Below, in pieces: positions 451-61,271 of a stretch of 64,000 nt of DNA. Source of the stretch: Paludisphaera soli (GTDB lineage: Bacteria; Planctomycetota; Planctomycetia; Isosphaerales; Isosphaeraceae). Position 1 is the first letter of the stretch, and every line of letters begins with the position of its first letter. Both the position numbers and the translations under genes were made by a program. The stretch covers positions 124,001-188,000 of the forward strand of contig NZ_JAALJI010000010.1 of assembly GCF_011064595.1 (NCBI RefSeq). Reading direction: 5' to 3'. The notes below the pieces were generated by a model. The model ran no database searches. It had not been told where the DNA came from and was given only the letters and a program-made list of their open reading frames with translations.

Positions 451-541
451 CCCCGCCGCCCGAGAGGGCGAGCCGACAGACCGACCGCACCCCCGCGACC
501 GAACGAACGTCGAAACCTCCTCTTGTGTGTTGAAATCAAGC

Positions 542-23162: not shown

Positions 23163-23665
23163 GATCGATCCCACCGCCTTGCGACCCGCCTCCCGCCGAC
23201 GAAAGCCCGAGGAATTCGGCCCCCGAGCCCCGCGCGCCGGCGGTTCGCCCCCTGAGTTGGAGAGCCTTGAAAGTCGTCCGACCCGCCGGACGCCCCGGCC
23301 TTCGGAATCGAATGGTCTCATCGTATCGGCCCGGTCGCTTGAGGGTCAAGCGTCCCGGACCCTGCGGACCCGGCTCCGACCCCGGTTGCGTGGCGACGGC
23401 GACCGCCGCGGGGAAGCCCCGACCGGGGCGTTATCCCGGATACGGAACGATCCTTAGGGAGTGTGGCTATAACCTGCCTGACATAGCTTGCATTGCGACC
23501 TCACGAATGAAGCTTATTTTCGCCTCATCGGCCCGGACGCAGCCGTCGCGAGGGCCTTGTTTCCGGCCCCGCGCACGCCCATCATTGATCTGCTGCGAAG
23601 GGTCCGACGGCCGCGCGACCTCCGCGCGGGCCCGCGGATCGGCCGCGACGACGGAGGGCGTCACG
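23163..23665. other. 503-nt divergent intergenic region
   Basis: No gene is supported between thiSG (minus) and the DUF2780-like gene (plus). A weak plus-strand promoter-like pair (TTGCGA, 16 nt, TATTTT at 23493-23520) is the only regulatory candidate. I looked for the conserved thiamine-pyrophosphate riboswitch core and did not find it. Confidence 0.5.
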
Positions 23666-41980: not shown

Positions 41981-43234
41981 TTAGTTGATGAACGCGTCCT
42001 GGCTGACCGGCTGCTGCTTGTAGGGGACAGGGAGCTTGCTGCCGGCGGGGGTCAGGATCTTGGCATACACGACGCCGTCGATCGAGTTCTGGATGAACCG
42101 GACGGAGCCGTCGCAGAAGGCGAAGTTGCTGCCGTTCGGGTGCCCGCTGGTGACGAACGGGAAGGTCCCCTTGATCGTCAGGGCCTGGCCGTAGCCGATG
42201 TTCTCGAAGTTGCCGACCCGATTGGCGGCCGCCCAGGTCGTGGCGTCGGTGGAGTTGGTGCCATCGGCCAAGGCCGTGTTGCACGCGCCACTGGCCCCAC
42301 AGATGTCGTCGGAGCCCATGAACAGGGCGAAGGTCGGCCAGGGGGCGGCCCAGTTGCTCTCGACCATGCCGGAGTACGCCGTCCCGGTCGAGTAGCCGAC
42401 CAGCGTGCTCTCGCCGATCAGGACGGTCGAGCCGGAGCCGTCGACGATGCTGGCGGTGGTGGTCTTCGTGCCGCCCCAGCCCGGGTTGCGTCCGCTGAGG
42501 GCGCCGGGGATGTCGGTGACCGTGTCGATCCCGTTGTTGTTGCTGTAGATCGAGTTGATGAACATGACGCCGAGCTTCTGGTTGACGCCCTGGGCCAGCG
42601 CCCCGGCGGAATCCCAGCTGAGCGCCTGGCTCTGGCTGCCGCCGGCCGAATCGCCGTCCATCGTGAAGCCCTGCCACCGCAAGGGGGCGGCCGCGTACCG
42701 GGCGAAGCCGCCGTTGGCGGCGTAGCTCAGGTTGCCCTCATTCGGGGTGAAGTTGGAGTCGTCCGGGCATCGCAGGATGGCGAGGGCCGTCCGGGAGATG
42801 AGGGCGTTCGGCGTCGACGTGCCGGGGGCCGTCGTCGCCAGGTAGTTCAACTCATGCGTCCAGTTGTTCGCCAGGTCGGCCTGGTCGAGATCCTGGAGGA
42901 TTTCGACGACCCAGCTCTTGGCCGCGCGGGGGGCGATGGTCGTGGCGTTGGGGGCCTGGGCCTCGTAGAGGACCGACTCGTTCGCCGCGTCGTGCGCGGG
43001 CGTGACCGGATATTCGAAGAACGTGCCCGCCGCCGGGTAGGCGCCCTTGCGGATGGCGTAGTTGTTGAGCGCCAGGCCGATGTTCTTGAGGTTGTTCTGG
43101 CACTGGGCGCGGCGGGCGGCCTCGCGGGCCGACTGGATGGCCGGCAGCAGCAGGCCGACCAGGACGCCGATGATGCTGATGACGACCAGCAGCTCGATCA
43201 GCGTGAAACCTTGGCGACGACGACGGGGCTTCAT
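41981..43234 (-). CDS. DUF1559 pseudopilin (H-x9-DG type)
   Basis: The 417-residue protein starts [18 protein letters not shown], a type III prepilin signal with Glu at +5, followed by the long N-terminal helix. It carries the DUF1559 pattern [26 protein letters not shown]-type segment and, near the C-terminus, the family hallmark H-x9-DG ([13 protein letters not shown]). These proteins are abundant in planctomycetes and are processed by prepilin peptidase. AAAGGA nine nt upstream supports ATG 43234. It has its own promoter candidate and terminator, so it is probably a separate transcript from the pseudopilin operon. Confidence 0.9.
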
Positions 43235-43355: not shown

Positions 43356-46300
43356 TCATTCGATCGTCCGACGGTACAGGACGGCGGCCTGGTAGGCCCC
43401 CATCGACTCGGGGTCGAAGCCCGTGAGCTTCAGGCGGTCGACCACGAAGAAGCTGCGATAGCGAGTGTTCTCGGCCGTGGAAGCCCCGATCTCCGGCCCC
43501 AGGATGTCGAAGGCCGCCTGGGGGTAGGTGGGATCACCGACCATCGCGATGTCCCCCTCCCGCTTCACCTCGAAGAACCCGACCGTGATCCAGACCGCGA
43601 ACTGGTGCGTCCGCACGGTGGTCAGGTTCATGACCCGCTGCATCAGCTCGCCCCGGAAATACGGGTGCTGGGTCTGGTTGACGCCGCCGCCGCCGCGACC
43701 GAGGGAGATCTCGGGGTAGCCGGTGGGGGTGTTGGCCTGGGGGATGAAGACGCTGGTCGCGCCGTCGTTGAGGTTCACCGTCGGCCCGCTCGTGACCGTC
43801 ACGATGGGAGGGAGCCCGCCGATCGTCGGGTTGTTGGCCCCGGCAGGTCGAATGCGGTTGATCGAGCCGTCTCCGAGGACGCTGGCGTTGCTCTCTGCCG
43901 AGCCGTCCGGGATCTGGAAGAGCCGACGCGTGGGAATGGCCGGGGGCAGCACGGTAGCGGCGGCGGTGCTGATCGGGCCGACCACCCGGTTGTAGCCGGG
44001 GAACAGGGCCAGGTTCCGGACGCCCGGATCGTTCGTGGTGGCGGGGTCGACGACGGGGTCGGAGAAGAACGAAGGCGGCAGCGACGCCGGCCGCATCGAC
44101 GTGGCGTCCACGTCCGGGAACGTGAGCGACCGGAAGGGACGCTCGGCCGGGATCTTGGTCAGGTAATCCGGGTGGGCGGAGTTCACCGGGGGGGCCGGCG
44201 GCGTGATCGCGGCGTTCTGCCCGGTCACCCCCTCGCCGAATCCGAAGAGGAAGCCCGACCCGCCGTGCCGCGCCCAGAGGAACTGCGCGAAGGCCGCCTT
44301 CATCCGATTCGCCAAACCGCCCGCGACGGGATCCGGGGCGACCGTCCCCACGTTCTGCATGGGGTGGGCGTACGCCGGGGCCCCGTTGTCCCGGGTCCCG
44401 GTGACGACCATCGGGATCGTGGGATAACCGGCAGCCAGGGGCCCCGTCCAGAGTCCCCCTGTGAATTCCGTCAGGCCGACCGCGGCCGGCAGAGGCAGCT
44501 GATATGGGTTCATCAGCTGCTGCAGGAAGGTGGGGACGGCCCCCGACATATCCTGCTTGCCGAGGAGGGCGAGGAAGACCTCCTCATCGATGATCAGGTT
44601 CAGGTTGAGCTGCCCCGCCCGGAGGTCCTGACGGGCCCAGTCGAAGTTCGTCCCCGCCGCGACGGTGCCGATCGCGCCGGCCATCTGGCTGGGGACCTCG
44701 AAGAACTCGAACATCCGGAACCAGCCGTCGCTGGCGTAGCCGCCCACGGTCGCCGGTGCGGTCGGGGTCGTGTAGAGCGTATCCGCGATGCCCGAGGCCC
44801 CGGCCGCCGTGTAGAAGAATTTGTCGACCAGGTAGGGGAACGTGTGGGGCCTGACGGGGTTCGCCGTCGCCTCGAAAGTGAACGGCTGGGCCAGCTCCGC
44901 CGTGGCGAACGGGCTCGCGACGGTTGGCGTGAGGATCGGCCTCGTGATCGCGTTGCGGCTGGTAGTCAGCACGCCGGCCGCCGCGTTGGCGAGTCCCACT
45001 CGCTGGGGTGACAGGGGATCCCCCGAGGGGGCGAACTCCGCGAAGTGCTTGGTGAACAGGCCGGGGGCCACGCCGGGCACGAGGGTCAGCTCGAAGGGGC
45101 TCGTGAAGTCGCGGTCGTGGAACGGGAAGAGGTCCCAGTACTCGGCCGGGTTCCCGCCGACGATCGTGCCGTCGTTCGGGAGGCCTAAGGTGTGATAGAT
45201 CTGGCCGAGGGAGACTTGGGGCCCCTGAGAGCCGGTCTGCTGCGTGGCGCTGGTCCCGTAGTTGATGACCCCTCCCAGGGTGGTCACCGGCGCGGCGATC
45301 TGGTTGGTGTAGCCGTAGCGGGGGTCGATGTTGCCTCCCACGGCACCGTTCACCGGAACGGCCTGGCCGCCGCGATAGGGCTGGAGACGCTGATACGAGA
45401 AGATGTCATTGGTGCCTTTAAGGGTGACGATGTCCACCCGGTCGGGCTCGTCCGACGGAGTGGGGTTGGGATCGGTCCGCACGGTGCCGCCGGCATCGAT
45501 GTAAGGGAACCGCATGCTGTCCACGACGACCATCGGATTGTCGTCCGAGACCGGGGCCATCGGATTGGCGGGGCGGCGCAGGCAGACCCAGTAATACGTG
45601 GCCTGCCCCGCCGTCCGGGGGATCTTGATGGGCCGGGTCGTGGTGCGCGTGCCGTCGATCTGCTTCGGGAGCACCCCGAACGGCAGGGTGAAGCCAGCCA
45701 CGGCCCCGTTCATCGGGTCGTGGTCCGCGGCCAGCGTGAAGAGGTTCGCGGTGGCGGGGAGGCTGGTCGCCACCGGGATGGTCTCGCTGTCGGCCTCGGT
45801 CCCGGCGCCGGGGAAGGCGTTCGCGATCGTCGCAACGTACTTCGGGTCGGCCGCCGTGCCGAAGAAGTCGACGGCCGTCGCCCCCTTCTGACGGGGAAGA
45901 GGATTCAGGACGGCGTTGGTCGCCGGCGTGAAGGCGGCCGGGTGGAGGGGCGTCAGGCTGTGGAGCGTGGAGCCCGGCTGGAGCTGACCGTTGAAGGGGT
46001 CGGGACGGCTGCCGGGGGTGTCCTCGGTGAAGATCAGGTCCCAGCAGGCGCCGTCGTAGGGGGCGCCTGCGGCCGAGTTGAACCCGCTCAAGTTGACCTG
46101 GCCGGCGTTGTTCGCGGGCGTCCCGGTCTCGGGCTTGGTCAGCGTGTTCACCAGCTCCACGAAGAACCGGCCGGTGTCCACGCCCGACCCGACGCCCTCC
46201 TTACGGGCATAGGAGTAGGCGAGCACCTCGTTGATCGCGACCGGATTGAACTCCATCCCGAACTGCTCGAGCGGCGTGATGCCCGTCCCCGAGGTGAACG

Positions 46301-49300
46301 TGAGCATCGGGAGCGTGTTCAGCGGCGTCAGCGTGCCGATGGGCGCGAAGTTGACGTCCGGGTTGACCCACTTGGTCATCGTGCAGTCGGGGTCGCGAAA
46401 GTCGACCAGGTTGACGAGGTACTGGCCGAGCTGCGCCAGCTCCTCGGGCGTATCGACGGACCGCGGCGGCAGCACGGTCTTGAGGAGTTGATAGGCGTCG
46501 GTGATCCACTTGCGGCGGATCGGCTCGTTGGGGTCGTTCGAGACCGGCAGCGGCATGTTCAGGTTGATCTTCCGCCCCCGCTGTGCCAGGGCCGGCGTGT
46601 AGGTGGTCGGCGAGATCGACGCCATGTTGGCGTTGGTCGTGGGCGACGCGAATCGACGGTTGTCGGGAAACTGCGGATCGCCCGCGGCGTGGGGCGGGAC
46701 GTCCAGCGGCCGGTCGAAAGCGTACGGCGGGTTGTCGTTCGTCCAGGCGTAGGCGTTCGTCTCCCACGACTCGACGGCGAAGAGCCGACGCCGCCGAAGC
46801 GCGTCCAGGTCGTTGAGGAAACTGATCGGCGCCAGCGAAGCCAGCCGGCTGCCGAGCGCCGGGCCGTCGACGTCCTGACGGCGGTAGAGCCACTCCAGGT
46901 CCGCGTTGCTGAACGGCGAATCCAGGTTCGGGTTGAGCTTGTAGAGGTTCAACTCGTCGGCCTCGTTCAGGCCGTCGGACCGGCTGTCCACCGCGACGTT
47001 GACCACGGTGCCGGAGTCGTCGGTGTAGCTGTAGTTGTAGTCGACGCCCGAGTTGATCTTGTTGTCGTAGGTCGGCATCTGCGTGGGCGTGCCGACCGCG
47101 TCGGTGGCGGGCGGGGGGAAGGTCTTGTAGGCCAGCATGCCGCCGGAACGCTGCGGGGTGCCGCGGGTGTTCGGGTTGAGAAACGCCTCGTAGCCGTGGA
47201 GGATGTTGTTATTGTGGGCGACTCTCGCGCCCAGGTTCGCCAGGCTGGCCATGGCCGCCGGATAGGGGTCGCCGTTTCCCCAGGGGTAGCCGATCTGGCC
47301 GGTGCCCGGGTCGATCTGCCCGGGGAGGCCGGGGGGGCGATAGTAGCCGCGATACTCGACGCGGCCCCAGTAGTCGCCTCCGCTGCCGCCGCCGCCCCGG
47401 GAGTTCCAGCGGCTCACCGAGCCCGACCCGTTCAGATCGACCGGCGTGAGGAACCGTCGCATCCGCTCGACCGGCAGCAGCAGCGCGCCGGCGGCGTCGT
47501 AGAAGTCGGAATCGCCCCGCTCGCCGAGCCGTCCGGTCGCCCCGGCCGGGTAGGCGTCGAACGAGTTGAAATCGTCGTCGGCCGCGTCGGCCGGGACGCC
47601 GCTGGAGTTGTAGTCGTAGACGCTGATCGAATAGCCCGGCCGGACCTCGTTGCTGTAGTTCGCACCGAGGGGGGCGTAGGAGCCGCCGGGGACGGAATCC
47701 GGCTCGCCCCAACGGCCGGCGACAGGGTTGGTCGTTCGGACGACGGGGTTCGGAGCGACGGGAGGCCTGTTCCCGGCGTTATCGACGTCGCCGGCGTCGG
47801 CCTTGCCGTTGGGAAGCGAGGTGTAGCGAGGGATGGTCTGCGCGACGTCTTGCCAGCCCATCTGCACGGGGTCGACGTCGCCGTTGACCTGGCCGGTGGT
47901 GTCCGGCGCGTCGGGGTTCGCCTGCGGCCGGGTGCCGGCCACGATGTTGCGAAGCTGCGTGAGGCGGACGTCGAGGGCCGAGGCGTCGGCCTGGGCGTAA
48001 CCGGAGGCGAACGCGTTCTGCAGGCCGTAGGTCGGGTCGACCTCGCTGACCGAATTGCCGAGGTTCGACGCGTGGGTGGCGTTGCTTTCCTCGCCCGTGG
48101 CCCGCCCCGCCAGGTTGCCGGCGGTGTTCAGCGGGATCCGGCCGTTGAGGCCGACGACCATGAAGGCGAAGAGGGGCTTGTAGAGCGTCCCCTGGGCGTT
48201 GCGGCGGGCGGGGTAGCCGAGGTCGACCCAGACCGAGTCGGTGATCCCGTCGCCGTCGTTGTCCACGTCGTAGGTGATCTTGCCGGTGGTCGGGCTGGGG
48301 ATCAGGTCGGGGAAGGTCGCCGGGTCGTGGCCGTCGGATGCACGCGGGCGGAGGATGCGGGACAGGCTGGTGCGGTCCGGCAACTCCCAGTCGTTCAGGC
48401 CGGCCGCCGGGTAGCGGATGTTGGCGGGGCGGTGGAACGACGGGATGATCAGCTGGCCGTCGGCGCTCTGCATCGCCAGGAACCAGTTTTCCAGGTCGAC
48501 GGCGTCGTAGTCCTCGTCCATCCCAACCGCGCCGGGGGAGTCCAGGTTGTACCGGAAGTTGCCGAACTTCGCGTCGACGTTCTTGCCGGCCCCGTTGAAG
48601 GCGTGCAGCCAGCGGCCGTCGAGGATGAAGCGATACTCGGTCGTGTAATTCGTGCCCAAGGTGTTCAGGAGCGCGCTGGCGGGGGTCACCGTGGTCGTGG
48701 CCACGGGGAGGTTGCTGGGGTTGAAGAGTCTGGTCGACGCGTCCGTCGGCGCGATTGCGACCGAGAGGGTGCGGGGATTGGTCGAGCCCGAGACGAAGCC
48801 GCCGTCGGCCACCACCTCGAACGTCTGGCCGATCACGCCGGTCGAGCCGGGAGGCGCGGTGCCGTTGTAGGCGACGCGGATCGTCCACCGCGTGAAGTCA
48901 TACCCGTAGAAGGCCGGGTCGCCCTCGGCGAGGTTCGTCGTCAGGATGTACCGGTTCGGCAGCGCATCCGGGTCGATCCGGGTGATGTAGAACAACGCGT
49001 TGTTCCCCGGGGCGGTGCGGGCGCCGTCGGGGCGGGCCTCCAGGTAGCCGTTGCGGTTGGAGTCGTTGCCGTACATGTCGCGGGCCAGGCTGTGGCCGCG
49101 GATGGCCGAGCGGGCGTCGTTGGTGTCGCTGATGAGCTGCGACAGGGCGAAGTCCATCAGCAGTTCGCTCTGGGGCTGGATCTTCGACTGGGCGAAGCTC
49201 CGGCTGGCGATCCGCGACTGCCCGGTGAACGTGGCGAACGTCACGCCGATCACCGCCATCAGCCCCAGCACGCCGAGGACGAGGATCAGGATGACCCCCC

Positions 49301-49340
49301 GCCGCTCGCGACGTCGCATTCGATACGCACTGGTCGTCAT
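43356..49340 (-). CDS. Giant GspK/PilX-like minor pseudopilin, 1994 aa
   Basis: The N-terminus ([30 protein letters not shown]) is a prepilin-like signal and transmembrane helix without the +5 Glu, as in GspK. About 1950 residues outside the membrane follow, rich in Asn, Pro, Gly, Thr and Asp. Calcium-loop-like pieces occur ([11 protein letters not shown] near residue 95, [12 protein letters not shown] near residue 365). GspK proteins are about 320 residues, so this is six times normal. I see no catalytic domain. AAGGGGG lies just upstream of ATG 49340. It is the last gene of the pilus-like operon, 102 nt after the GspJ-like gene. Confidence 0.75.
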
Positions 49341-49442
49341 GGTCGTCCCCCTTGCTCCCTCGACTCGCCGCCGTCCGGCTTCCGCCCGTGCCTGGTTTCG
49401 ACGCCTTCGGGCGTCCGCGCGTTCCGAATTTCTTCGTGGACG

Positions 49443-51668
49443 TCAGAGCTTCTCGGTGAAGTCCTGACGGATGGTGAGGATCTTGATGCGTTGATTGGTC
49501 GGGTCGGCCACCCGCACCTGGACCTGGATCCCCCGCAGCGGGGCCGGGTACGGCGCCGGGTAGGACGGGTAGATCGGCGGCGAGAACGGCGGCCCGTGGG
49601 GGAAGCCGTCGATCGCCCGCACGCCCGTCGCCGGGGCTTTGCTGTAGGTCGTCGACCACGAGTCCCACACCCGCCGCAGGCGGATGAGGCCGGGGGCGTT
49701 GTCGCCGATGTTGCCGTCGTAGGTGGGGTACGTAGACCCGTAGAAGCCCGCCGCGACGGCCCCGTACTGGGAGTCGAACCGGTAGTCGTTGATCAGCGGC
49801 GGCATCCGGCCCTCGTGGGCGAACGTCTGGTCCAGCACGTTGTACGCCGAGCCGTTGATCAGGGCGTAGGCGTTGGGGCCGAAGGCGCCGGCGAATGCGT
49901 CGAAATTGCCGTACAGATACGGCAGGTTTTCATTCGTGCCGAGCGAGGGATTCGCCCCGACGCTGGTGGCCGGACCGGCGATCCGCAGGTCGTCGCCCCA
50001 GCCGAGGTCGGCGTAGTCGGCGAGGGCCGGGTCGAAGGCCTTCACGTCGAAGCTGCGGACGTTGGTGAGGATCAGGTCGTCCTCCCAGCTGTTGTCGGCC
50101 CAGAGGGGATTGGTCGGATCGCCGGCGAAGTAGCCCGAGTTGGCCCCGGTCCCGTCCGTGAACAGCTGCGCCTTACGCACCCCACGCCAGTCGGCCGTCA
50201 TGGGGGGGAGGAGCTGGTTCCCCGCGATGTTCGCACCCCGCTCGACATGCCCGGAGAGGGTCTCGCCGGCGTTCGCCGGGATCGCGTTGGAGGGGAGCAG
50301 GCCGTTCGGGAAGGCGTGGCCGACTCCCGGCTGATTGACCTGGAAGGTCGGGTCGTTCCACTCCGGCGCCAGGGTCTCCCGCCAGGTCGGGAACTGCCAC
50401 AGCGTCTGGAGGTTGCTCCAGTTCTGGCCCGTCACGGTGGGCGCCGGGGCGTTGTCGCCCAGGTCGAGCGGATTGTGGTTCAGGTTGAGCAGGTAGTTGA
50501 TCGGGTCGGTGTCGAACTGGTAGATCGTCGTGCCGTCGCCGTTCGTCGCCCAGGGGGCGGGTGCGTGGATCCAGCCGGGCGAGTAGTTCGCCAGGGCCTG
50601 GGCCTGCGAGTAGGCGCCCCGGAAGACATACGGGAAGGCCAGGCTGTAGCGTCTCGGATAGAGGTTGCCGTTTCCGGTGATCGCCGGCCTGTTAAAGACG
50701 TTCCAGAGGACGCGCGTCGTCGACCCGCCCGCGACGGAATCTTCGATCATGTTGGGGTAGAGCGTCGGATACCAGTCCGGCACATTGTCGCCGTTGAAAT
50801 CGTCGGGGATGCCGTCGGGGATCAAGCCGCCGGCCAGGTTCACGAAGTCGTCGGCGAACCGAGGCATGGCGAAGCGGTTGTGGCGGTCGGTCAGGTCCGC
50901 GAGCGAGTTCAGGACCACCGAGTTGTTGGCGCCGTTCGTGGACGGCAGGCCGCGTGCCGCCGGCCGAGCGGAGAGGTCGTTGACCCCCTGCCAGCTCACT
51001 TGGAGCCCACCGAGGTCGGGCGGGAAGAACGCCCAGGGAAACGTCGGCGCCCCGGAACTCGTCGAGGCCACGTAATAACCCAGATTCCAGGTGGCGGCGG
51101 CTACCTCGGAAAATGAGGGCACGATCCGGGACTGCAGCTCGGGGGCCACCAGCAGGACCCGCCTGTAGAGGTTGCCGTTGCGGAGGAAGTAGATGACCTC
51201 GGCGTACTCGCTGGTGACGGTGATCGGCCGCGAGGCGCTCCGTTCGGCCGGAGTCAGCAGATCCATGTACAGGGTGGTCGTCAGCACGTTAGCCGGCTTG
51301 GCCCACATTCGGCCCGTGAACGGGCGGCCGGCGGGGGCTTTGACGGTCAGTCGGATATAGTCGTCGATGTCCTCGCCGTCGTTGTCGGCGTACTCGTTCT
51401 CGCCGTACTCGAAGTAGCCGCGTTGGTCCTTGGGGTCGTTGGGCGGGGTGAACTTGGCCGTGGCGCCGGCGAGGTCCGAGCGCAGGGTGGAGTCGAGCCG
51501 GCGCAGGTCGTCGTCGAGCCGCTGGTACACCTGGGCGGCGTTCATCGAGCCGGTCGCGGCCTGGAAGATCTGGACGACGAGCGCCATCATCAGCAGGAGC
51601 ACGGCCAGCGTGACCAGCATCTCGACGAGCGTCACGCCTCGTCGGCGGCGGCGGAGATTCGCGTTCAT
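49443..51668 (-). CDS. GspJ-like prepilin, 741 aa
   Basis: A type III signal (RRRRRGVTLVEMLVTLAVLLLMMALVVQ, Glu +5) starts the protein. A helix then continues as AAQVYQRLDDDLRRLDSTLRSDLAGA, close to GspJ/PilW minor pseudopilins. The body of about 690 residues is mostly strand- and loop-rich, with a DFNGDNVPDWYP motif near residue 290. Normal GspJ is about 200 residues. ATG 51668 has GAAGG about 11 nt upstream. GTG 51686 is an alternative. It lies 155 nt after the GspI-like gene. Confidence 0.8.
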   Translation of the reverse strand: MNANLRRRRRGVTLVEMLVTLAVLLLMMALVVQIFQAATGSMNAAQVYQRLDDDLRRLDSTLRSDLAGATAKFTPPNDPKDQRGYFEYGENEYADNDGEDIDDYIRLTVKAPAGRPFTGRMWAKPANVLTTTLYMDLLTPAERSASRPITVTSEYAEVIYFLRNGNLYRRVLLVAPELQSRIVPSFSEVAAATWNLGYYVASTSSGAPTFPWAFFPPDLGGLQVSWQGVNDLSARPAARGLPSTNGANNSVVLNSLADLTDRHNRFAMPRFADDFVNLAGGLIPDGIPDDFNGDNVPDWYPTLYPNMIEDSVAGGSTTRVLWNVFNRPAITGNGNLYPRRYSLAFPYVFRGAYSQAQALANYSPGWIHAPAPWATNGDGTTIYQFDTDPINYLLNLNHNPLDLGDNAPAPTVTGQNWSNLQTLWQFPTWRETLAPEWNDPTFQVNQPGVGHAFPNGLLPSNAIPANAGETLSGHVERGANIAGNQLLPPMTADWRGVRKAQLFTDGTGANSGYFAGDPTNPLWADNSWEDDLILTNVRSFDVKAFDPALADYADLGWGDDLRIAGPATSVGANPSLGTNENLPYLYGNFDAFAGAFGPNAYALINGSAYNVLDQTFAHEGRMPPLINDYRFDSQYGAVAAGFYGSTYPTYDGNIGDNAPGLIRLRRVWDSWSTTYSKAPATGVRAIDGFPHGPPFSPPIYPSYPAPYPAPLRGIQVQVRVADPTNQRIKILTIRQDFTEKL

Positions 51669-51823
51669 GCGGCGGTAGACCTTCACGACTGGGCCCCTGC
51701 ACTGGGTGGCCCGCCCGTCCCCGAGGCGGGGAAGCCGCGACGGGCGGAGAGCGGGTCGGACGATCGCGGCGAAGACGAGGCGACGCGGCCGCGATCGTCG
51801 AGATCGGCGAATGGATCGATCAA

Positions 51824-53308
51824 TCAGTGGATGACGATGGTCTGCGGGATGACGTTGACGACGTGGGGCGCGATCAGGGCCGCGTTCACGACCGCCGGGC
51901 TCGGCGTGGCGCCCGCGGTCATCGGCGTCCGGGCGCGGAGGGCCGAGTTGACCTGGACGATCATCCGGCGGAAGCCGCCGGTCACGTTGGGGTCGCCCGC
52001 GAAGCCCGGATCGACCACCGCCGGCGTCGTCTTCACGACCTGATACCAGAACGCCCGCTGCGCCGGGGTGTTGTCCCACTTGCCGCCGTTGAGCGGGTTC
52101 GGCACCCCGACGAAACGGCCAGTGTCGTCCGTCTGGACGACGGTGCCCTGGGTGTTGAGGGCGACGAGCTGCTGACGCTCGTAGGTGACGTCGCAGATCC
52201 AGTCGCCGGTCTTCACGATCGGGTCGGCCATCGTGGCGGGCCAACGCAGCAGCACGGTGCGGTCGGCCGCCGACCCATAGCCGACGGGCCCGAACGCCGC
52301 GACGTTCGTGCTGTAGCCGAAGACCGCCTCCACCACCGTCTCGTCGGCCGGCTTGACGATCGTCACGGAGGAGTCGAGCGGACTGGGCATCGATTCCAGG
52401 TCGAAGGCCCGGTTCTCATAGATCACCAGGTCCCCCTCGAAAGTGGCGGCGTTGCTGGAGCTGCCGAGCCGGCCGGTGAAGATCCAGGAGAACCGCCAGT
52501 CGTTGACCGACGCGCCGGTGCCGCTGATGGTCCGGTCTGGGAGGATCGGGCTCAGGTTCGACGGGTTGTTCATCTCGTTCCAGACCACGTCCTCCGGCGA
52601 CACGAAGATCGACGGCACATTGTTGGTCGTCTGCATGAAATAGATCGGGAACGTGTTTCCAGCTCCATCGGTGTAAGTGGAGCGGACCCGGCCGTTGAAG
52701 TTCGTCAACCGCTGGAGCCCGTGGGCGCTCGGGGCGCCGCCGTCGGGATCGTTGCGGACGAAGCCGATCCCGGAGCCGAAGCGGGCCTCGGGTACCACGC
52801 CGGCCCCGGCGGGATCCTGCGGATACAGCGTCATCTTGTATCGCCAGAGCGGATCGTAGGCGAATGGGAGCCCGGCGCTGCCGCGGATATGGAAGAGGGA
52901 GTTGCCCGCGTCGAGCCCCACCAGGTCGGTCAAAGCGGCACCGGCGTAGACGTCCCCGCCGTAGCTCGCGGCGTCCTGCAGGAGCGGGTTGAAGAGGCCG
53001 TCCGGCGTCCTGACGCTGACCTGGCAAGGGTACCAGGAGCTGAAGCCCGCATAGAGGTTCAGCAGATCGGCATAAACGAACGACTGCGCGTTGACGAGGT
53101 TCCGCGCGGCCATGTCGGCGGCGGCCGACTCGAACAGGAGGGCCGAGCGTGACTGCCTCTGGGCCTCGCGGAGCCGCAGCAGGCCGATCGGGAACAGTGT
53201 GGCGATCGAGACCAGCCCGACCCCCAGGATCATGATCCCGATCAGGATCTCCGTCAGGGTGATGCCCGACCGGCCCGGCCGGTCGCGATGGTCGCCGGGG
53301 CGGATCAT
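51824..53308 (-). CDS. GspI/PilV-like prepilin, 494 aa
   Basis: The signal RSGITLTEILIGIMILGVGLVSIATLFPIG (Glu +5) with a following REAQRQSRSALLFESAAADMAA helix matches GspI/PilV minor pseudopilins. The extracytoplasmic part is about 430 residues, against about 100 in normal GspI. It starts ATG 53308, overlapping the stop of the GspH-like gene (ATGA), so it is coupled to it. No enzyme motif is seen. Confidence 0.8.
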   Translation of the reverse strand: MIRPGDHRDRPGRSGITLTEILIGIMILGVGLVSIATLFPIGLLRLREAQRQSRSALLFESAAADMAARNLVNAQSFVYADLLNLYAGFSSWYPCQVSVRTPDGLFNPLLQDAASYGGDVYAGAALTDLVGLDAGNSLFHIRGSAGLPFAYDPLWRYKMTLYPQDPAGAGVVPEARFGSGIGFVRNDPDGGAPSAHGLQRLTNFNGRVRSTYTDGAGNTFPIYFMQTTNNVPSIFVSPEDVVWNEMNNPSNLSPILPDRTISGTGASVNDWRFSWIFTGRLGSSSNAATFEGDLVIYENRAFDLESMPSPLDSSVTIVKPADETVVEAVFGYSTNVAAFGPVGYGSAADRTVLLRWPATMADPIVKTGDWICDVTYERQQLVALNTQGTVVQTDDTGRFVGVPNPLNGGKWDNTPAQRAFWYQVVKTTPAVVDPGFAGDPNVTGGFRRMIVQVNSALRARTPMTAGATPSPAVVNAALIAPHVVNVIPQTIVIH

Positions 53309-54804
53309 GGTGCGTCTCCCTGTTCGCCGAGCTGGGGCGCGTGGTAGGGCTGGTTCACGTTTGCCACGTTGAACAACGGGCGGTCGGTCGTGATCAGGTT
53401 CCCCGTCCGGGTGAAGAGCGTGAGCAGTCGCATCTCCCCCTTCAGGGACGGCAGCGTGGGATTCGAGCCCATCAGGACGTCGTACGCGTTGGGGGTGCCC
53501 CCGGCGTTCTGCCCCACCGGCATGGGGAGCAGGAAGGGGTAGCCGGAGACGAGGGGGACGGCCGACGGCGGCGTGGTCGACGTGTCCACCACCACCTCGG
53601 CCAGGTCGCTCCGCTCCGCCAGCCAGATGTGATAGAACGACGCCGCCATCCCATACGACGAGGGGCTCGAATACTGCATCGCCGGCACCACCTTCCCGGT
53701 GGAGTCGAGCAGGATGTCCACGGTCCCCGAGGAAGGGTCGACCGGCAGCCGCGAGCGCTCGCGCGTCGATAGGAATGAAGTCGTCAGGTCCACGACCACG
53801 TTCGAGGGAAGCACCGTCTCCCGCGCCCCCGGCGAGGGGACCGGGCGGCGGATGATCGTGTAGGGCACGCCGCCTTCGTGGAGGTCGCCGAATACCCCTC
53901 GAGTGACGGGGAGTCCCGCCGAATCCGCCGTGAACCCCGACGGCCAGTATTCCGGCTCCGACCATTCCCCGAGGTCGTCGATCAGGCCGTTGAGGTTGTT
54001 GTCGACGCCGTCCTGGCCGTTGTCGATGTAGCCGTCCTTGTCGTCGTCCACGCCGTTCACGACGAAGAGGATCTCGGGCTTGAAGGTGCTGGCGCCGCTC
54101 GGGGGGGTGCCGAACGTCGGTCCGTTGGCAGGGTCCATGTTGATGAACCCCTCGGGATTCGGCACGTCCACCGGCCCCACGACCGTGAAGAACGGCCCGG
54201 TGTTGTTGACCTGGATCTTGTCCCCCTTGCGGACGTTCCAGTACCAGGACGTCGGATTCTCATACGGATAGGTGTCTGAAATCGGCTCGTGAGTAAAGAC
54301 GCCCTGGACGATCATCAGGACGTTGCCGTTGGGATAGACGTCGAACGAGGAGACCCCGGGGAAAGTCCCGTCCGGCGAGGGCGGAGTCACCCACGGCCAC
54401 CCGCCCGTGAAGGCCGTCTGGAATCCCTGCCGGAACGCCAGGACGACCGCCCCCTCGCGGTACCCCGGCGGTTGCTCGATCGGGATGAACCGGTTCGAGG
54501 CCAGGGTTCGGAAGCGATTGATGCCGCCGGGCGAGCCCGGATCGATCCCGTTATAGGTCGTGTCCGGGAGGAAACGGATGCCGTGCGGCGTGTTGCTCCG
54601 CAGGGCCGAGTCGCGGGCGGCGATCAGGCCCCCCTGGACGATCCGGGCCGACTCGCTGACCTGGCGGTGGCTGATCGCCGGGATGATCACCGGGAGGGCG
54701 ACCGCGGCGATGATGCCGACGATCAGCAGCACGACGAGCAGTTCGACCAGCGTGAAGCCGGGACGGGGCCGACGATCGGACGGCGGCGTTGTGGGGCGGT
54801 TCAT
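53305..54804 (-). CDS. GspH-like prepilin, 499 aa
   Basis: PGFTLVELLVVLLIVGIIAAVALPVI is a classic type III signal. The next segment (ARIVQGGLIAARDSALRSNT) matches the GspH/FimT N-terminal helix. The large body includes an acidic double calcium-loop-like region (DDDKDGYIDNGQDGVDNNLN near residue 255). Normal GspH is about 170 residues. The start is 4 nt after the GspG-like stop. Confidence 0.82.
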   Translation of the reverse strand: MNRPTTPPSDRRPRPGFTLVELLVVLLIVGIIAAVALPVIIPAISHRQVSESARIVQGGLIAARDSALRSNTPHGIRFLPDTTYNGIDPGSPGGINRFRTLASNRFIPIEQPPGYREGAVVLAFRQGFQTAFTGGWPWVTPPSPDGTFPGVSSFDVYPNGNVLMIVQGVFTHEPISDTYPYENPTSWYWNVRKGDKIQVNNTGPFFTVVGPVDVPNPEGFINMDPANGPTFGTPPSGASTFKPEILFVVNGVDDDKDGYIDNGQDGVDNNLNGLIDDLGEWSEPEYWPSGFTADSAGLPVTRGVFGDLHEGGVPYTIIRRPVPSPGARETVLPSNVVVDLTTSFLSTRERSRLPVDPSSGTVDILLDSTGKVVPAMQYSSPSSYGMAASFYHIWLAERSDLAEVVVDTSTTPPSAVPLVSGYPFLLPMPVGQNAGGTPNAYDVLMGSNPTLPSLKGEMRLLTLFTRTGNLITTDRPLFNVANVNQPYHAPQLGEQGDAP

Positions 54805-54808
54805 GATC

Positions 54809-56500
54809 TCAGCCTCCCGATCCGGCGCTGGCGGTGACGGTGTGGTTGCTCACGTCGTCCTGGCCCGCGTCCCAGATCTGGAACGAAGGCCCGGTCGGGT
54901 TCAGGTTGAGGGTCGCCGGGATCGTCGGCGGCGAGCCGGTGAAGACTTCGCTGGGCTGGAACTGCGCGGCGTTGTTCTCGAACGAGATCAGGCCGGCGAC
55001 CGCGTCGCGGACGGTGCCCAGGGAGAGCGGGTTGGGATACATCGCCACGCCGAGTTGCTGGTCCGGCCCCCCCGAGAGGATCAGGGGCTTGCTGGAGAAA
55101 GCCCGACGATACCCGAGCCCCGGGATGCCGCCGCGATCCCAGTACTTGCCGCCGTCGGTCGGCGAGGCGGTCGAGTACTCCATCGGCTCGGTGAGCCTGT
55201 GGAAGTAATGCTCGAAGCTCAGGACTCCGAGGCTGGAGTTGATCGGGCTCCCCGGCGGCGTGAGGGCCGGGCCGGTGAGCTGCGGATACGCGGCGTTCTG
55301 CGATTCCAGCCACCACGAGGGGGACATGAGGTTCTGGTTCGGGTCGAGCGCGTCCTGCTCGCGGGACTCGAAGATCGAGGCGTAGGGGCGGAGGAACCGG
55401 AGCGGGGCGGTGGAGTCGGTGAGGTCGGGGCCGATGTTCTGGCCGCGCTGGGAGTCGGAGTGGTAGAAGAGCGGCCAACGGAAGAACTGGAGCGGCTTGC
55501 CCCAGGCGTCGACGAACTCGGGCAGGCCGTCACCGTCGGTGTCGCGGACCTCGCGGTCGCTGAAGTCGTCCGCGTTGAAGATCGAGCCCAGGGGCCCCTG
55601 CCCCTCGACCAGCAACGCGTAGAGCATCTCCGAACGGGCCGTCTCGTGCGTGTGCTGGCTCAGTCGGGCAAGGACGTCGGCCTCGTTCGAGGAGTCCACG
55701 CCCTCCCCCCACTCGTCGATCAAGCCATTGCCGTTGTTGTCGACCAGGTCGTAGCCCGCGGGCAGGTAGCCGAGATTCTTGTAGATGCCCGCCGCCACCG
55801 CGTAGGAGGCCCCGTAGATCCCCCGGCCGGTCAGGCCGAGCTGGGGGTTCGATGAGTAGAAGACTCCGTTGTCCAGATTGCCGTCGCCATAGCCGGGCAC
55901 CCACGCGCCCGCACCGTTGCGAGGCCCCTGCACCGCATGGCCCAGCGGCAGGATGAAGTTGCCCTGGGCCGTGATCGGGGTCCCCGGGTAGGGCTGCGAG
56001 GCGAAGTCGATGGGATAGTCCGTCGCGGCCGGCGTGCCCGAGAGCCCGGCCTGGATCACGAACACGTCGGGCATCTCGCTCTTCATGTAGTCGGCCGTGG
56101 CGAACGCCAGGGCTCGGCCGGTGGTCCGGACCTTCGTGGAGGGGTACTCCGAAGGGAGCAGCAGGGCCGGCGGGGTCATCCGCGGGAGGCCGTCGTCCTC
56201 GGTCCCGCCGAGGTACACCCCGCCCAGATAGCCGTGGCTGAAGTTGGGGTCGGGACGGAGCTGCATGAGGGCGTCGAGGCGGTCGTTGAGGCCCGACTCC
56301 AGCTTCAGGATGAGGGCCTGGGTGGCTCGGACCTCGGCCTGGCGGATGCCGTCGCGCGAGGCGATCAGGATGAACGTGACGAGGATCCCGATGATCGTCA
56401 TGACGATCATCAGCTCGATGAGCGTGAACCCGCGCCTCGGGGGGGCGCCCCGCGGGTCGAGGATCGTCTGTCGGGGAGGGGTCGTCATGTTCGCATCCAT
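54809..56500 (-). CDS. GspG-like prepilin, 563 aa
   Basis: RRGFTLIELMIVMTIIGILVTFIL is a type III signal and transmembrane helix with Glu +5, followed by RQAEVRATQALILKLESGLN, the GspG/PilA-like helix. Calcium-loop-like motifs DNNGNGLIDEW (about residue 255) and DTDGDGLPEFVD (about residue 322) lie in the body. Normal GspG is about 140 residues. The start may be ATG 56500 or ATG 56488. Both have weak ribosome sites. It ends 4 nt before the GspH-like gene. Confidence 0.82.
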   Translation of the reverse strand: MDANMTTPPRQTILDPRGAPPRRGFTLIELMIVMTIIGILVTFILIASRDGIRQAEVRATQALILKLESGLNDRLDALMQLRPDPNFSHGYLGGVYLGGTEDDGLPRMTPPALLLPSEYPSTKVRTTGRALAFATADYMKSEMPDVFVIQAGLSGTPAATDYPIDFASQPYPGTPITAQGNFILPLGHAVQGPRNGAGAWVPGYGDGNLDNGVFYSSNPQLGLTGRGIYGASYAVAAGIYKNLGYLPAGYDLVDNNGNGLIDEWGEGVDSSNEADVLARLSQHTHETARSEMLYALLVEGQGPLGSIFNADDFSDREVRDTDGDGLPEFVDAWGKPLQFFRWPLFYHSDSQRGQNIGPDLTDSTAPLRFLRPYASIFESREQDALDPNQNLMSPSWWLESQNAAYPQLTGPALTPPGSPINSSLGVLSFEHYFHRLTEPMEYSTASPTDGGKYWDRGGIPGLGYRRAFSSKPLILSGGPDQQLGVAMYPNPLSLGTVRDAVAGLISFENNAAQFQPSEVFTGSPPTIPATLNLNPTGPSFQIWDAGQDDVSNHTVTASAGSGG

Positions 56501-56570
56501 CTCCGGCCTTCGCGACGGGCCCGGGACGTTCCCGAGCCCGCGTGGGGATCCAGTAAGCCAGGTCCGCCGA

Positions 56571-57755
56571 TCAGTCGAGCCGGCCGCCGTGGAAGTTGGT
56601 CAGGTTGTCCTTCTCGCGGCTCCGAACGTTGGCCTCGTTGAGCGGCGTGCCGTCGGACTTGACGGTGTTCGCCGCGTCGTAAGGCAGCACGCCGGTCGTC
56701 GCGTTCGGCTTGTACTGCCCCCCCGGCCCGAACTGCCCGTCGACCCCGGAGGAGATGAGCTGATAGGTCTGGGGGTTGACGTAGCCCACCGTCGCCGCGT
56801 TCGTGGTGGAGGTCGTGTACGGGTTCGGCGACGGCGAGACCGCCAGGTTGGAGGTCGTCGGGCTCGCCGAGGTCCGCACGGGGAACCGGACGTTGAACCG
56901 CGAGAGGATCGGCGCGACCAGGTTGCCGTCCGCCTCGGTCGGGAAGTTGACGTCGTTGGGGTCGTAGGCGTTGTTGCCGTAGGAGCTGAAGTAGGCGATG
57001 AAGTTGATCTGGTCGTTCCCCAGCGAGTTCCCGAGCGAGTCCAGGTAGCCCGGGAACGCCAGCGGGTCGGCCGGGTTCACCGCCTGGAGACGTTCGGCGG
57101 AGAACTCGAAGGTCGGCGTCTCGCGATTGGCGCTCACGAAAGAGGCGGGCTGGGCCGCGTCGACGCGCGAGGCGGGGATGAACGGGTTCGTGGGGTTTTT
57201 GGCGAATCCGGTCATGCTGAAGCCGGTCTCGGTCTTCTGGGGGAGGCCGCCGAGGAAGAAGACCAGGGCCTGGTGGCCTTCGAGGATGTAGGGGGTGGCG
57301 AAGTCCCGGACGCCGTTGCCGTTGAAGTCGTACCACTGGCTGTCGGTGGCCGTCCACACGGCGCCCGAGGTGCTGAAGTTGACCTTCGGGAAGAGCTTCC
57401 GCATGTACATCAGCGAACGCTGGGCGAGCTGGCCGCGGGTCATGTCGGCCGAGCCGTTCGCCGGGGCAAGGGCGGCGGCGTCGCCGGTCTGGAAGTAGCC
57501 ATTCTCGTACAGGATCACGCGGCTGGGGGGGTAGTCGCCCCTCGCCGACTTGAACGACGCGAGGGCCTGGTCGATCTGCTTGATGTTGGCCGAGGCGGCG
57601 GTGTTCTTGGCCGTCCGGACCGCCCCGTTGATCGCCGGCAGGAGGAGGGCGATCAGGATCGAGAGGACGACGAAGACGACCAGCAGCTCCACCAGCGTGA
57701 AGCCGCGCCGGTCGGGGCCGGTCGGGGTGCGTCGGCGGGTCGAGGGGCGAGTCAT
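56571..57755 (-). CDS. GspG-like prepilin, 394 aa
   Basis: Signal RRGFTLVELLVVFVVLSILIALLLPAI, Glu +5, then ASANIKQIDQALASFKSARGDYPPS, the closest match in this operon to a major pseudopilin GspG (helix ending in a YPxS turn). The body carries DFNGNGVRDF (about residue 145). GGAGG lies about ten nt before ATG 57755. It is the first prepilin gene after gspF. Confidence 0.83.
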   Translation of the reverse strand: MTRPSTRRRTPTGPDRRGFTLVELLVVFVVLSILIALLLPAINGAVRTAKNTAASANIKQIDQALASFKSARGDYPPSRVILYENGYFQTGDAAALAPANGSADMTRGQLAQRSLMYMRKLFPKVNFSTSGAVWTATDSQWYDFNGNGVRDFATPYILEGHQALVFFLGGLPQKTETGFSMTGFAKNPTNPFIPASRVDAAQPASFVSANRETPTFEFSAERLQAVNPADPLAFPGYLDSLGNSLGNDQINFIAYFSSYGNNAYDPNDVNFPTEADGNLVAPILSRFNVRFPVRTSASPTTSNLAVSPSPNPYTTSTTNAATVGYVNPQTYQLISSGVDGQFGPGGQYKPNATTGVLPYDAANTVKSDGTPLNEANVRSREKDNLTNFHGGRLD

Positions 57756-57888: not shown

Positions 57889-59133
57889 TCAGCCCGAGAG
57901 CTTGGTGATCAGGGTGATCAGCGGGAGGAACAGGGCGATGACGATGAAGCCGACGATGCCGCCGAGGACGACGATCATGATCGGCTCGAGGAGGCTGACG
58001 AGCGACTCGACCGCCACCTCTACTTCCTCGTCGTAGTTGTCGGCGATCTTGTTGAGCATGGTGTCCAGGTCGCCCGTCTCCTCGCCGACGTCGATCATGT
58101 TGACGACGATGTCATCGACGATCCGCGCCTCGCGGAGCGGCTGGGCGATCGTCTCGCCCTCGCGGATGCTCTCGTAGATGCGGGTGAACGCCCGCTCGAA
58201 CACGGCGTTGCCGGCCGTCTCGCGGACGATCGAGAGCGCCTCCAGGATCGGCACGCCGGACTGGACGAGGGTGCCGAGGGTCCGCATGGTCCGGGCCACG
58301 GTCGACTTCTCGGCGATCGTCCCCATGACCGGGATCATGAGCAGGACGCGGTCGCAGACGTAGGCGCCGGTCTTGTTGCGGTAGAGGAGCTTGATGAACA
58401 TCCAGATGAACAGGGGCGTCAAGAACACGATGTAGAAGTACTTGATCAGGAAGTGGCTGGCCTCGATCAGGACCTTCGTCATGTTCGGCAGGGGGACGCC
58501 GAAGTCGTTGAAGATGGCCTCGAACTTGGGGATGATGAAGTAGAGGATGAAGCCCACGATCACGCAGGCGACGAAGATCACGACGATCGGGTAGACCATC
58601 GCGCCCTTGATCTTCCGCTTCAGCGACTGGGCCTTCTCCTTGAAGTCGGCGAGGCGCTGGAGGATGGCCTCGAGGGCGCCGCCGGCCTCGCCCGCCTTGA
58701 TCATGTTGCAGTAGAGCCGGTCGAAGGCCTTGGGGTGCTTGGCGAAGGCCTCGGAGAGGGTCTGGCCGCTCTCGATGTCCTCCACCACGTCGCCCAGCGC
58801 GTTCTTGAGCACGCCCGGCTTGCACTGGCCTTCGAGGATCTTGAGGCTGCGGAGGATCGGCAGGCCGGCGTCCTGGAGCGTGGAAAGCTGCCGCGTGAAG
58901 GTGCAGAGCTGCTTGGTCGAGATCCGGCCGATCGTGAACGACTTCTTCTTCCGCCGGCCCCCCTTCTTGGCCGTCGCCGACTTGCGGGTCTTCTTGGCCT
59001 TCTCGGAGATCTTGGTGACGAAGAAGCCCTTCTGGCGGATGAGCTGCTGGGCCTCTTCCTGGGTGGCGGCGTCGATGGCGTCCTTCACCTCGCGCCCGGT
59101 GTGGTCCATCGCTTCATATTGGAACGTCGGCAT
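57889..59133 (-). CDS. GspF/PilC inner-membrane platform protein
   Basis: The 414-residue protein has two GspF domains: FTRQLSTLQDAGLPILRSL (first) and MRTLGTLVQSGVPILEAL (second), and three hydrophobic helices (about residues 185-210, 235-260 and 385-410). The N-terminal YEAMDHTGREVKDAI is also family-typical. A Lys-rich stretch (about residues 45-65) is unusual. AGGAG precedes ATG 59133. It anchors the ATPases and pseudopilus at the membrane. Confidence 0.92.
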   Translation of the reverse strand: MPTFQYEAMDHTGREVKDAIDAATQEEAQQLIRQKGFFVTKISEKAKKTRKSATAKKGGRRKKKSFTIGRISTKQLCTFTRQLSTLQDAGLPILRSLKILEGQCKPGVLKNALGDVVEDIESGQTLSEAFAKHPKAFDRLYCNMIKAGEAGGALEAILQRLADFKEKAQSLKRKIKGAMVYPIVVIFVACVIVGFILYFIIPKFEAIFNDFGVPLPNMTKVLIEASHFLIKYFYIVFLTPLFIWMFIKLLYRNKTGAYVCDRVLLMIPVMGTIAEKSTVARTMRTLGTLVQSGVPILEALSIVRETAGNAVFERAFTRIYESIREGETIAQPLREARIVDDIVVNMIDVGEETGDLDTMLNKIADNYDEEVEVAVESLVSLLEPIMIVVLGGIVGFIVIALFLPLITLITKLSG

Positions 59134-59198: not shown

Positions 59199-60914
59199 TC
59201 AGACCTCGGTCATCGTCTCGCGCATGATCTCTTCGATGCTGGTCCGGCCCTCGTGGATCGCCTCGAGTCCGGCCTCGCGGAGGGTCTTCATGCCGTACCT
59301 GCGGCAGGCCTCGCGGAACTCGTCGAGCGAGACCTCGGCCACGATCATCTCGCGGAGGATGTCGTTCATGACGATCAGCTCGTAGATCCCCTGCCGGCCC
59401 TTGTAGCCTGTGTTGTTGCAGCGGTCGCAGCCCTTGCCGTAGAACCATTTCTGGCCCGCGGCCTGCTCCGGCGTCAGGCCCAGCTCCATGATCACCTCGG
59501 GGCTGGGCATGAACTCGGTCTTGCAGTTGACGCAGAGCCTCCGCACGAGTCGCTGGGCCAGCACGGCCTCGACGGTGGCGGTGATGAGGAACGTCGGCAG
59601 CCCCATGTCGCGGAGCCGAGTGACGGCCGAGGGGGCGTCGTTCGTGTGCAGCGTGGTGAAGACGACGTGGCCGGTGAGCGACGCCTGGATCGAGATCTCG
59701 GCCGTCTCCAGGTCGCGCGTCTCGCCGACCAGGATCTTGTCCGGGTCTTGCCGCAGGATCGACCGCAGGCAGGCCGCGAAGGTCACGCCGATCTCGGGAT
59801 TGATCGGGACCTGGACCAGGCCCTCGATCTCGTACTCGACCGGCTCCTCGGTCGTGATGATCTTGTCCTCGATCTTGTTCAGCTCGTTCAGAGTGGCGTA
59901 GAGGGTGGTCGTCTTGCCCGAGGAGGTGGGCCCCGTCACCAGGATGATGCCGTTGGGCTTCTCGATGACCTCCAGCCAGCGCGTCAGGGTGTCGCCCGGC
60001 ATCCCCAGCCGCTTGAGGTCGAGCTGCACGACCGAGCGGTCGAGGATCCGGAGCACCACGCTCTCGCCGAACATGGTGGGCAGGGTCGAGACCCGGATGT
60101 CCACGCTGTTGCCGCCGAGGGCGAGCTGGATCTTGCCGTCCTGGGGGAGCCGACGCTCGGCGATGTCGAGGTTGGACATGACCTTGATGCGGCTGGAGAT
60201 CGCCGGCGCCAGGTGTCGCGGCGGCGGGACCAGCTCGTACAGGATGCCGTCCACCCGGTACCGCATCTTGTACTCTTCCTCGAAGGGCTCGAAGTGGATG
60301 TCCGAGGCCTTGTCCTTGATCGCCAGCAGCAGCACCATGTTCAGGAGCTTGCGCACCGGCGCGGCGTCGGCCATCTCCTCGATGGCCTCCAGGTCGATGG
60401 TGTTCTCGTTCCGCCCGGCCATCTTCTGCAGGCCCTTGTCCTGCTCGATCTGCTTCACCACGTCCTGGATCGACTCGTGGTGGCCGGCGTAGATCCGCTC
60501 GATCGCGGCGGTCACCTCGGCCTCGGTCGAGACGACCCCCTTCACCGGCACCCCCAGGAAGAGGCCCAGGTCGGCCAGGGTCGAGGGGTTCTGAGGCTCG
60601 GCCATGGCCACCGTGACGCTCTTGTCCTTCTTGCTCTGCGAGATCGGCACGACCTTGAAGGCGGTCGCCATACCCTCGTTGACCAGCTCGGTCAGCTCGG
60701 CGGGGATCGTCGTCTCCCCCAGCCGAATCACCTTCATCCCGAGCAGCTCGCCCAGCGCCTTCTGGACGTGGTCCTCCTTGGCCAGGCCCAGCCGGACGAT
60801 CACCTTGCCGATCAGCTCGCCGGCGCCGCGCTTCTGCTCCTCGAGGGCGCGCATCAGCCCTTCCTCGTCGAGGTAGCCCATGTCGACCATGATCGTGCCG
60901 AGCCGTCGCGCCAT
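59199..60914 (-). CDS. GspE/PilB assembly ATPase with MshEN domain
   Basis: The 571-residue hexameric ATPase has an MshEN-type N-terminal region (ALGELLGMKVIRL, about residues 50-150), Walker A GPTSSGKTTT, Asp and Walker B boxes (ILVGETRDLETAE), HTNDAPSA and the zinc motif CVNC...CDRC in the C-terminal part. Family members extend the pilus or pseudopilus and may bind cyclic di-GMP through MshEN. It follows pilT and precedes gspF on the same strand. Confidence 0.92.
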   Translation of the reverse strand: MARRLGTIMVDMGYLDEEGLMRALEEQKRGAGELIGKVIVRLGLAKEDHVQKALGELLGMKVIRLGETTIPAELTELVNEGMATAFKVVPISQSKKDKSVTVAMAEPQNPSTLADLGLFLGVPVKGVVSTEAEVTAAIERIYAGHHESIQDVVKQIEQDKGLQKMAGRNENTIDLEAIEEMADAAPVRKLLNMVLLLAIKDKASDIHFEPFEEEYKMRYRVDGILYELVPPPRHLAPAISSRIKVMSNLDIAERRLPQDGKIQLALGGNSVDIRVSTLPTMFGESVVLRILDRSVVQLDLKRLGMPGDTLTRWLEVIEKPNGIILVTGPTSSGKTTTLYATLNELNKIEDKIITTEEPVEYEIEGLVQVPINPEIGVTFAACLRSILRQDPDKILVGETRDLETAEISIQASLTGHVVFTTLHTNDAPSAVTRLRDMGLPTFLITATVEAVLAQRLVRRLCVNCKTEFMPSPEVIMELGLTPEQAAGQKWFYGKGCDRCNNTGYKGRQGIYELIVMNDILREMIVAEVSLDEFREACRRYGMKTLREAGLEAIHEGRTSIEEIMRETMTEV

Positions 60915-61271
60915 GCCCTCGCCCCCGATCGATTCACGCGCGGGACGTCCCCGGGAGGCCCCAGGGGGCCCCCTTCCACGCCTCGTCGTCGGACCTGTCT
61001 GTCGTTGGTGTCGAAGAGAAGAAGATCGCGAGGGGCCGGAGCGGGCCCGCTCGCTTCGCGTCGCGGATGGTCTGGGATTCTCGTGGCGGTCCGGCGGAGG
61101 CCGGCCGCGGAGGCCGGCGTCGAATCCGCCGCAAGCCCCGATCACCCTTGAGGTCCAATCGTGCTTGAACCTATTTCAACGTGTACATCTCAGATACTCG
61201 GACCCGGACGCCGTGTGACACGCCGAGCCGGGCCGTTCGCCGTTCGGAGCGACCTGGGAGGCCGCCCTCGA
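60915..61271. other. 357-nt spacer between pilT and GspE-like gene
   Basis: No gene is supported. A perfect 7-bp hairpin GCCGGCC-GCGGA-GGCCGGC lies at 61100-61118, made of two GGAGGCCGG repeats. An upstream A/T-rich segment (61140-61200) may hold a promoter, but no clear -35/-10 pair is seen. Confidence 0.5.

Follow-up and report, generated by a model that had tools for sequence, protein, structure and literature searches.

The 64,000-nucleotide stretch of Paludisphaera soli DNA analysed here (the window; the genome as a whole measures 7.97 Mb) carries on its minus strand a run of genes encoding a filament-assembly motor followed by prepilin-like proteins. The run begins with ATP1 (62692..64000), an assembly ATPase of the PilB/GspE family (T2SSE 2e-137; GspE 587 bits, slightly below the cut-off) that is truncated by the window end at 64000: in the genome the reading frame carries on beyond this point, and relatives encode a protein of ~580 amino acids (aa). 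It is followed by the retraction ATPase PilT (61272..62384, 370 aa; TIGR01420 449 bits against a cut-off of 319), by ATP2 (59199..61145, start codon uncertain), a second PilB-type ATPase with an MshEN domain (PilB 613 bits, slightly below the cut-off; MshEN 2e-14), and by the PilC/GspF inner-membrane platform protein (57889..59133, ~414 aa), which has two T2SSF domains (8e-71) and a GspF score of 408 bits against a cut-off of 424. Then come, where the preliminary description had placed them, six open reading frames separated by -4 to 155 bases: p1 (56571..57755, 394 aa), p2 (54809..56500, 563 aa), p3 (53305..54804, 499 aa), p4 (51824..53308, 494 aa), p5 (49443..51668, 741 aa) and the giant K (43356..49340, 1994 aa). 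Directly downstream of K, and loosely associated with the set, lies a gene for a 417-aa DUF1559 prepilin (41981..43234, minus strand; PF07596 4.5e-37 plus N_methyl), which begins right after K in some relatives too. Elsewhere in the window, apparent ThiS-ThiG (22122-23345) and PurS-PurL (362-3406) fusions are each encoded in a single frame.

The six proteins had been described as having normal prepilin N-termini; this holds for p1-p5, all of which have a class III prepilin N-terminus with Glu5, while that of K is GspK-type and lacks Glu5. The Pfam N_methyl model scores above its cut-off in p1, p2, p3 and p5, and at 17.3 bits against a cut-off of 21.2 in p4, where the GITLTE motif is nevertheless present. 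Apart from this methylation motif, Pfam detects in p1-p5 only a sub-threshold T2SSG in p1, and NCBIfam matches are restricted to the N-terminal region; none of the giant-pilin bodies searched yielded a carbohydrate-binding domain or any other recognised one. The description of the soluble bodies as enlarged is supported. The genome contains 117 N_methyl prepilin matches in total, far above the needs of one filament machine.

Profile comparison, class-wide alignment and gene position together assign p1-p4. In hhalign, p1 matches E. coli GspG with 98.4% probability (E 6e-15) and p2 with 97.3%, in both cases over the N-terminal part only. The p1 protein retains a YPP stretch after the helix and the signature SxGxDGxxGxGG...DNxTNF; p2 has DxDGDGxxEFxDAWGxP and SAGPD...DNIxN, and a C-terminal segment of the SxGxDGxxG...DNxxN type is common to the two. 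As judged by these motifs, GspG hallmarks are retained at both ends of p1 and p2. The match of p3 to GspH (96.1% over 66 residues) extends past the helix and includes the ARDxAxxxGxPxGVR block, and we refer to p3 as GspH/FimU-like. For p4, hhalign gives just 43.5% against GspI, and the PilV model TIGR02523 scores 4e-4, under its cut-off; this sub-threshold match and the position between H and J hint that p4 may be GspI/PilV-like.

The clearest view of how a subunit has been enlarged comes from p5, which matches GspJ by profile with 88.5% probability. Its AlphaFold model contains a confident helix (residues 14-67) and strands at 86-175, 532-546 and 713-736, interrupted by two segments modelled at low confidence, ~184-525 and ~565-705 (~340 and ~140 residues). 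While plain Foldseek gave no useful match, VIA structure comparison returned seven pilin-fold entries with Z scores of 9.5-11.2, among them EpsJ, XcpW, GspJ and Thermus TTHA1219, spanning model residues 43-741; the next-ranked row has a Z score of 4.3. In the model, then, p5 is a GspJ/PilW-type pilin with two long insertions inside the globular domain, and the extra size would therefore sit within an ordinary pilin fold. The same plan may extend to the other enlarged subunits.

In the K protein, the first 34 aligned residues match E. coli GspK, at a low probability (24.5%, E 8e-4); K has no Pfam or NCBIfam match, T2SSK included, and a profile of residues 800-1130 aligns to E. coli GspK with 0.1% probability. 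These scores rule K out as a T2SSK member. Membership of TIGR02600 (Verru_Chthon cassette protein A; cut-off 332 bits) is likewise rejected, with no match in the P. soli genome and, in one K of the class, a match of 21 bits to model positions 1-47 alone. On sequence, K is GspK-like in its N-terminus only. The subunit order G,G,H,I,J,K put forward in the preliminary description accordingly stands for G, G, H and J, is weak for I (p4), and applies to the N-terminus alone for K. Conservation in K is concentrated in blocks at ~1-100, 255-460, 800-1130 and 1880-1994, the second of which contains a DxDNDGDGxxDSVW loop; parts of the alignment have low occupancy. A model of residues 1-1200 reached a pLDDT of 58.5, and a fold search with it in the PDB brought up nothing but weak beta-barrel matches to residues 94-249, whose best Z of 6.4 is too low to interpret; GspK was not among them, an absence that carries no weight. 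In profile searches of the PDB, whole-length K had no match and residues 800-1130 had one, at chance level.

The six-gene giant-pilin set is real. The order ATP1-PilT-ATP2-F-p1-p2-p3-p4-p5-K is repeated in several families of Planctomycetia, with PilT 65-99% identical among syntenic loci; in Pirellulales-type loci p5 is placed after K. A profile of K residues 255-460, searched against genomes of the class Planctomycetia, finds K in 159 of the 177 good genomes (173/198 overall, 103/109 genera), nearly always once per genome and in frames mostly of 1250-3231 aa; in the named loci, K measures 1295-2621 aa (median 1836). A conserved set of large bodies, which the preliminary description had expected to see if its proposal was sound, is thus what the class displays. 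It had also named two ways in which the set could be spurious, and both are contradicted. Frame errors joining separate genes, or another sequencing artefact, are ruled out because, in tens of related genomes, every gene occurs as one uninterrupted full-length reading frame and the order is kept (for K, 53 of the 59 sampled genomes match); low-complexity tails absent from relatives are excluded because only 0-3% of 30-mers have an entropy below 3 bits and because invariant residues are found throughout K, from G15 to D1968 in the 25 class members compared.

Several variants of the arrangement were seen. In Singulisphaera-type loci (L095, L096, L140, L151), p2 is missing between p1 and p3 and the remaining operon is intact; a 1295-aa K-like protein (locus L186) has no pilin genes around it. 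Outside Planctomycetia, the phylum is rich in giant GspK-like proteins, frequently in several copies: other planctomycete classes encode many proteins of 1000-2100 aa that have only the Verru_Chthon GspK-like N-terminus in common, and in one such genome (G083) four K-like giants, in frames of 1312-1393 aa, lie within 20 kb (contig C25, 11.5-31 kb).

A loop of the form DxDxDGxx[DE] is present in 25/25 p2 and 36/39 K sequences and in at most 0.4% of shuffled ones. In p2 and K these loops resemble calcium-binding loops and may act as such.

The rest of the machine was sought in the P. soli genome, which encodes two prepilin peptidases and has two secretin matches. One secretin has PF13629, a Tad/CpaC-type N-terminal domain. 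The other (PF00263 over the cut-off), whose frame spans at most 1560 aa, lies on a different contig from the giant-pilin locus, in a row consisting of PilM (PF11104), two unassigned proteins and the secretin itself. As the only non-Tad secretin found in the genome, it probably serves the giant-pilin locus. Its C-terminal part is present in 77 of 78 good class genomes, in frames mostly of 1200-2200 aa, and it scores below the cut-off for both PilQ (TIGR02515) and the Amuc_1098 family (85 bits against 750). PilM scores over the cut-off for TIGR01175 (167 bits against 133) and below it for the Amuc_1101 family (210 bits against 650). By these scores, this PilM and this secretin are relatives, not members, of the Amuc_1101 and Amuc_1098 families. 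PilT is in the operon of nearly every syntenic locus long enough to reveal it; GspL (PF05134) was not found in the P. soli genome, with a positive E. coli control, and PilY1 had no match there, the control genomes being equally silent. The presence of PilT and PilM, with GspL not found, favours a type IV pilus over a type II secretion system (T2SS), and we consider it very probable that a type-IV-like pilus architecture is nearly universal in Planctomycetia. The PilM-type protein next to this secretin and the two unassigned proteins after it (L123 1329-8098, contig C90) contain Met/Gly-rich stretches of the MMGGMMGSMMG kind, which are odd for a pilus basal body. The genome also has a separate, odd T2SS-like cluster (L119, contig C117, ~86-96 kb), in which a run of several GspF-like genes precedes about four prepilin genes.

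How might such a machine work? In the mechanism that we propose, p1-p5 and K, once cleaved by prepilin peptidase, would be built into a filament by the PilB-type ATPases and PilC/GspF, with PilT as the retraction motor. The shaft would be built from the GspG-type p1/p2 or from DUF1559 pilins, and p3-p4-p5-K would form a priming or tip complex with K outermost. The preliminary description had suggested a thick pseudopilus or a tip structure; an enlarged tip or priming complex seems the likelier of the two, given that the H, I, J and K subunits are minor ones. Elsewhere among bacteria, filament assembly is primed by the minor-pilin complex, which is located at the tip (PMC7541494). As the large segments would be inserted into the globular pilin heads, they should face the periplasm or the outside, where the tip bodies could bind polymers, with the calcium-type loops helping to hold their folds. 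Extension and retraction through the unusually large secretin would then capture polymers and pull them toward the periplasm. In Myxococcus, bulky fusions at the tip jam the pilus, and the block may lie at the secretin (PMC7541494). A giant tip would therefore call for an unusual pore, and the secretin, with its exceptional length, might be what matches such a tip.

Published work bears on the function of the machine. The 12-nm pili-like fibres found at the crateriform structures of Planctopirus and Gemmata bind gold-labelled dextran, and dextran builds up in the periplasm in an energy-dependent manner, the authors speculating about a link between uptake and the crateriform structures (PMC5394234). 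In Verrucomicrobia, the MUL2 locus (Amuc_1099-1102, beside the Amuc_1098 secretin) has been described as a mediator of glycan attachment, and uptake is dependent on mul genes (PMC13174399, PMC4960237). Minor-pilin tip complexes are able to bind glycans (PMC9934059). Taken together, the dextran-binding fibres, the MUL2 glycan pilus, the tip location of minor pilins and the glycan-binding tips make a polymer-capturing pilus with an enlarged tip complex the most likely role, and the dextran-binding planctomycete fibres are perhaps its route of capture. By this analogy we tentatively attribute a polymer-capture function to the locus, a proposal that falls somewhat short of an even chance. Our best overall reading, also held with less than even confidence, is a class-wide type-IV-like pilus with an enlarged priming/tip complex that captures polymers; in it, the architecture of the filament, the position of the tip and the binding and uptake of polymers are all predicted features. 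Counting against this reading are the bodies searched, in which no carbohydrate-binding domain turned up, the low-confidence models of K and of the p5 insertions, and the location of the secretin away from the giant-pilin locus.

The strongest competitor, although unlikely, is a T2SS whose subunits have been enlarged for the wide planctomycete periplasm, such that a short pseudopilus bridges this space and recruits exoenzymes, with nothing displayed outside. The G,G,H,I,J,K order and the GspJ, GspG and GspH character of the subunits fit it, and it is compatible with a giant secretin, the giant bodies needing no passage through the pore. Planctomycetales reportedly have a 45-nm periplasm and extended periplasmic parts in the outer-membrane proteins of their T2SS, as Mahajan and colleagues are said to have described in Genome Biol Evol in 2020, which would also count in its favour. 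It is, however, poorly reconciled with the operon's own PilT, a component that T2SS lack and that nearly all syntenic loci long enough to reveal it contain, with a PilM of the pilus type and with the GspL result.

An ordinary type IV pilus for adhesion, twitching or DNA uptake, with large adhesive minor pilins and no part in nutrient uptake, is quite improbable in our view. The type IV pilus core is there, and pilins of modular build, onto which adhesive modules have been grafted, are widespread (PMC8179133); the indirect evidence that speaks against such a pilus is the resemblance of the basal body to the glycan-uptake pilus of Verrucomicrobia, and the binding of dextran by planctomycete fibres. 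Finally, non-functional drift, in which unrelated insertions are tolerated in pilin loops, would account for the variable length of K, the low occupancy of parts of its alignment and the poorly modelled insertions, but is rendered highly improbable by the class-wide invariant residues throughout K, the recurrence of the calcium-type loop in p2 and K and the minimal content of low-complexity sequence.

If the locus does encode a polymer-capturing pilus, a bolder version can be sketched, which as a whole we think doubtful: a class-wide polymer-import pilus in which the crateriform fibres end in a giant H-I-J-K tip, the ~200-kDa outermost subunit grips polysaccharides and PilT retracts it through the giant secretin, all as one ancestral machine shared with mucin and fucoidan uptake in Verrucomicrobia. 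A giant-pilin locus that is nearly universal and mostly single-copy is a concrete candidate both for the passage of macromolecules across the planctomycete outer membrane and for the source of the proteins that make up the dextran-binding crateriform fibres, and one that can be deleted in the genetically tractable Planctopirus limnophila, in which three pilQ-like genes are dispensable (PMC11958385). Were the link to Akkermansia MUL2 true, foraging on mucin in the gut and the uptake of polysaccharides in the environment would be tied together by a single ancient machine across these phyla.

The preliminary description took the locus for an undescribed system, which goes too far: the motor, platform and basal body are those of a recognisable type IV pilus-like machine (PilT, PilM, PilQ-like secretin), parts of which already carried pil gene names in the annotation of Rhodopirellula baltica (PMC2754498), and oversized pilins are known (PMC8179133). 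With the type IVa minor pilins FimU-PilV-PilW-PilX and PilY1, the planctomycete system has in common the H,I,J,K order, PilT, PilM, the PilB/PilC motor and a K/PilX-type subunit without Glu5, although the planctomycete subunits are roughly 2-10 times larger. With GspG-K of the T2SS it shares the gene order F,G,G,H,I,J,K, the GspJ fold of p5 and the G and H signatures; it differs by PilT, by GspL not being found and by a K without a T2SSK match, and its bodies are far larger than those of T2SS pseudopilins (120-320 aa).

The Akkermansia MUL2 pilus (Amuc_1098-1102) is similar in its basal body, PilM resembling Amuc_1101 and the secretin Amuc_1098, and here a row of PilM, two genes and the secretin is found; the planctomycete secretin and PilM are longer, however, and a giant pilin set is not reported for MUL2 in the literature examined. 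In a sister phylum, the Verru_Chthon cassette proteins A-D (TIGR02600, TIGR02598, TIGR02599, TIGR02596), which lie in tandem, comprise a prepilin-like set with one very large GspK-like member (a 1296-position model), having the N-terminal helix region alone in common with the planctomycete set. The modular pilins (S. sanguinis PilB/PilC, CofB, GspK) likewise couple a pilin module to an additional functional part that probably sits at the tip. In S. sanguinis PilB/PilC this extra mass is terminal, whereas in p5 it lies within the fold, and all six planctomycete subunits are enlarged together. We found no paper on a class-wide set of this kind in the literature searched, most subscription journals being outside it. 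What appears to be new, then, is that a mostly single-copy set found throughout the class has all six of its subunits enlarged at once and retained alongside PilT.
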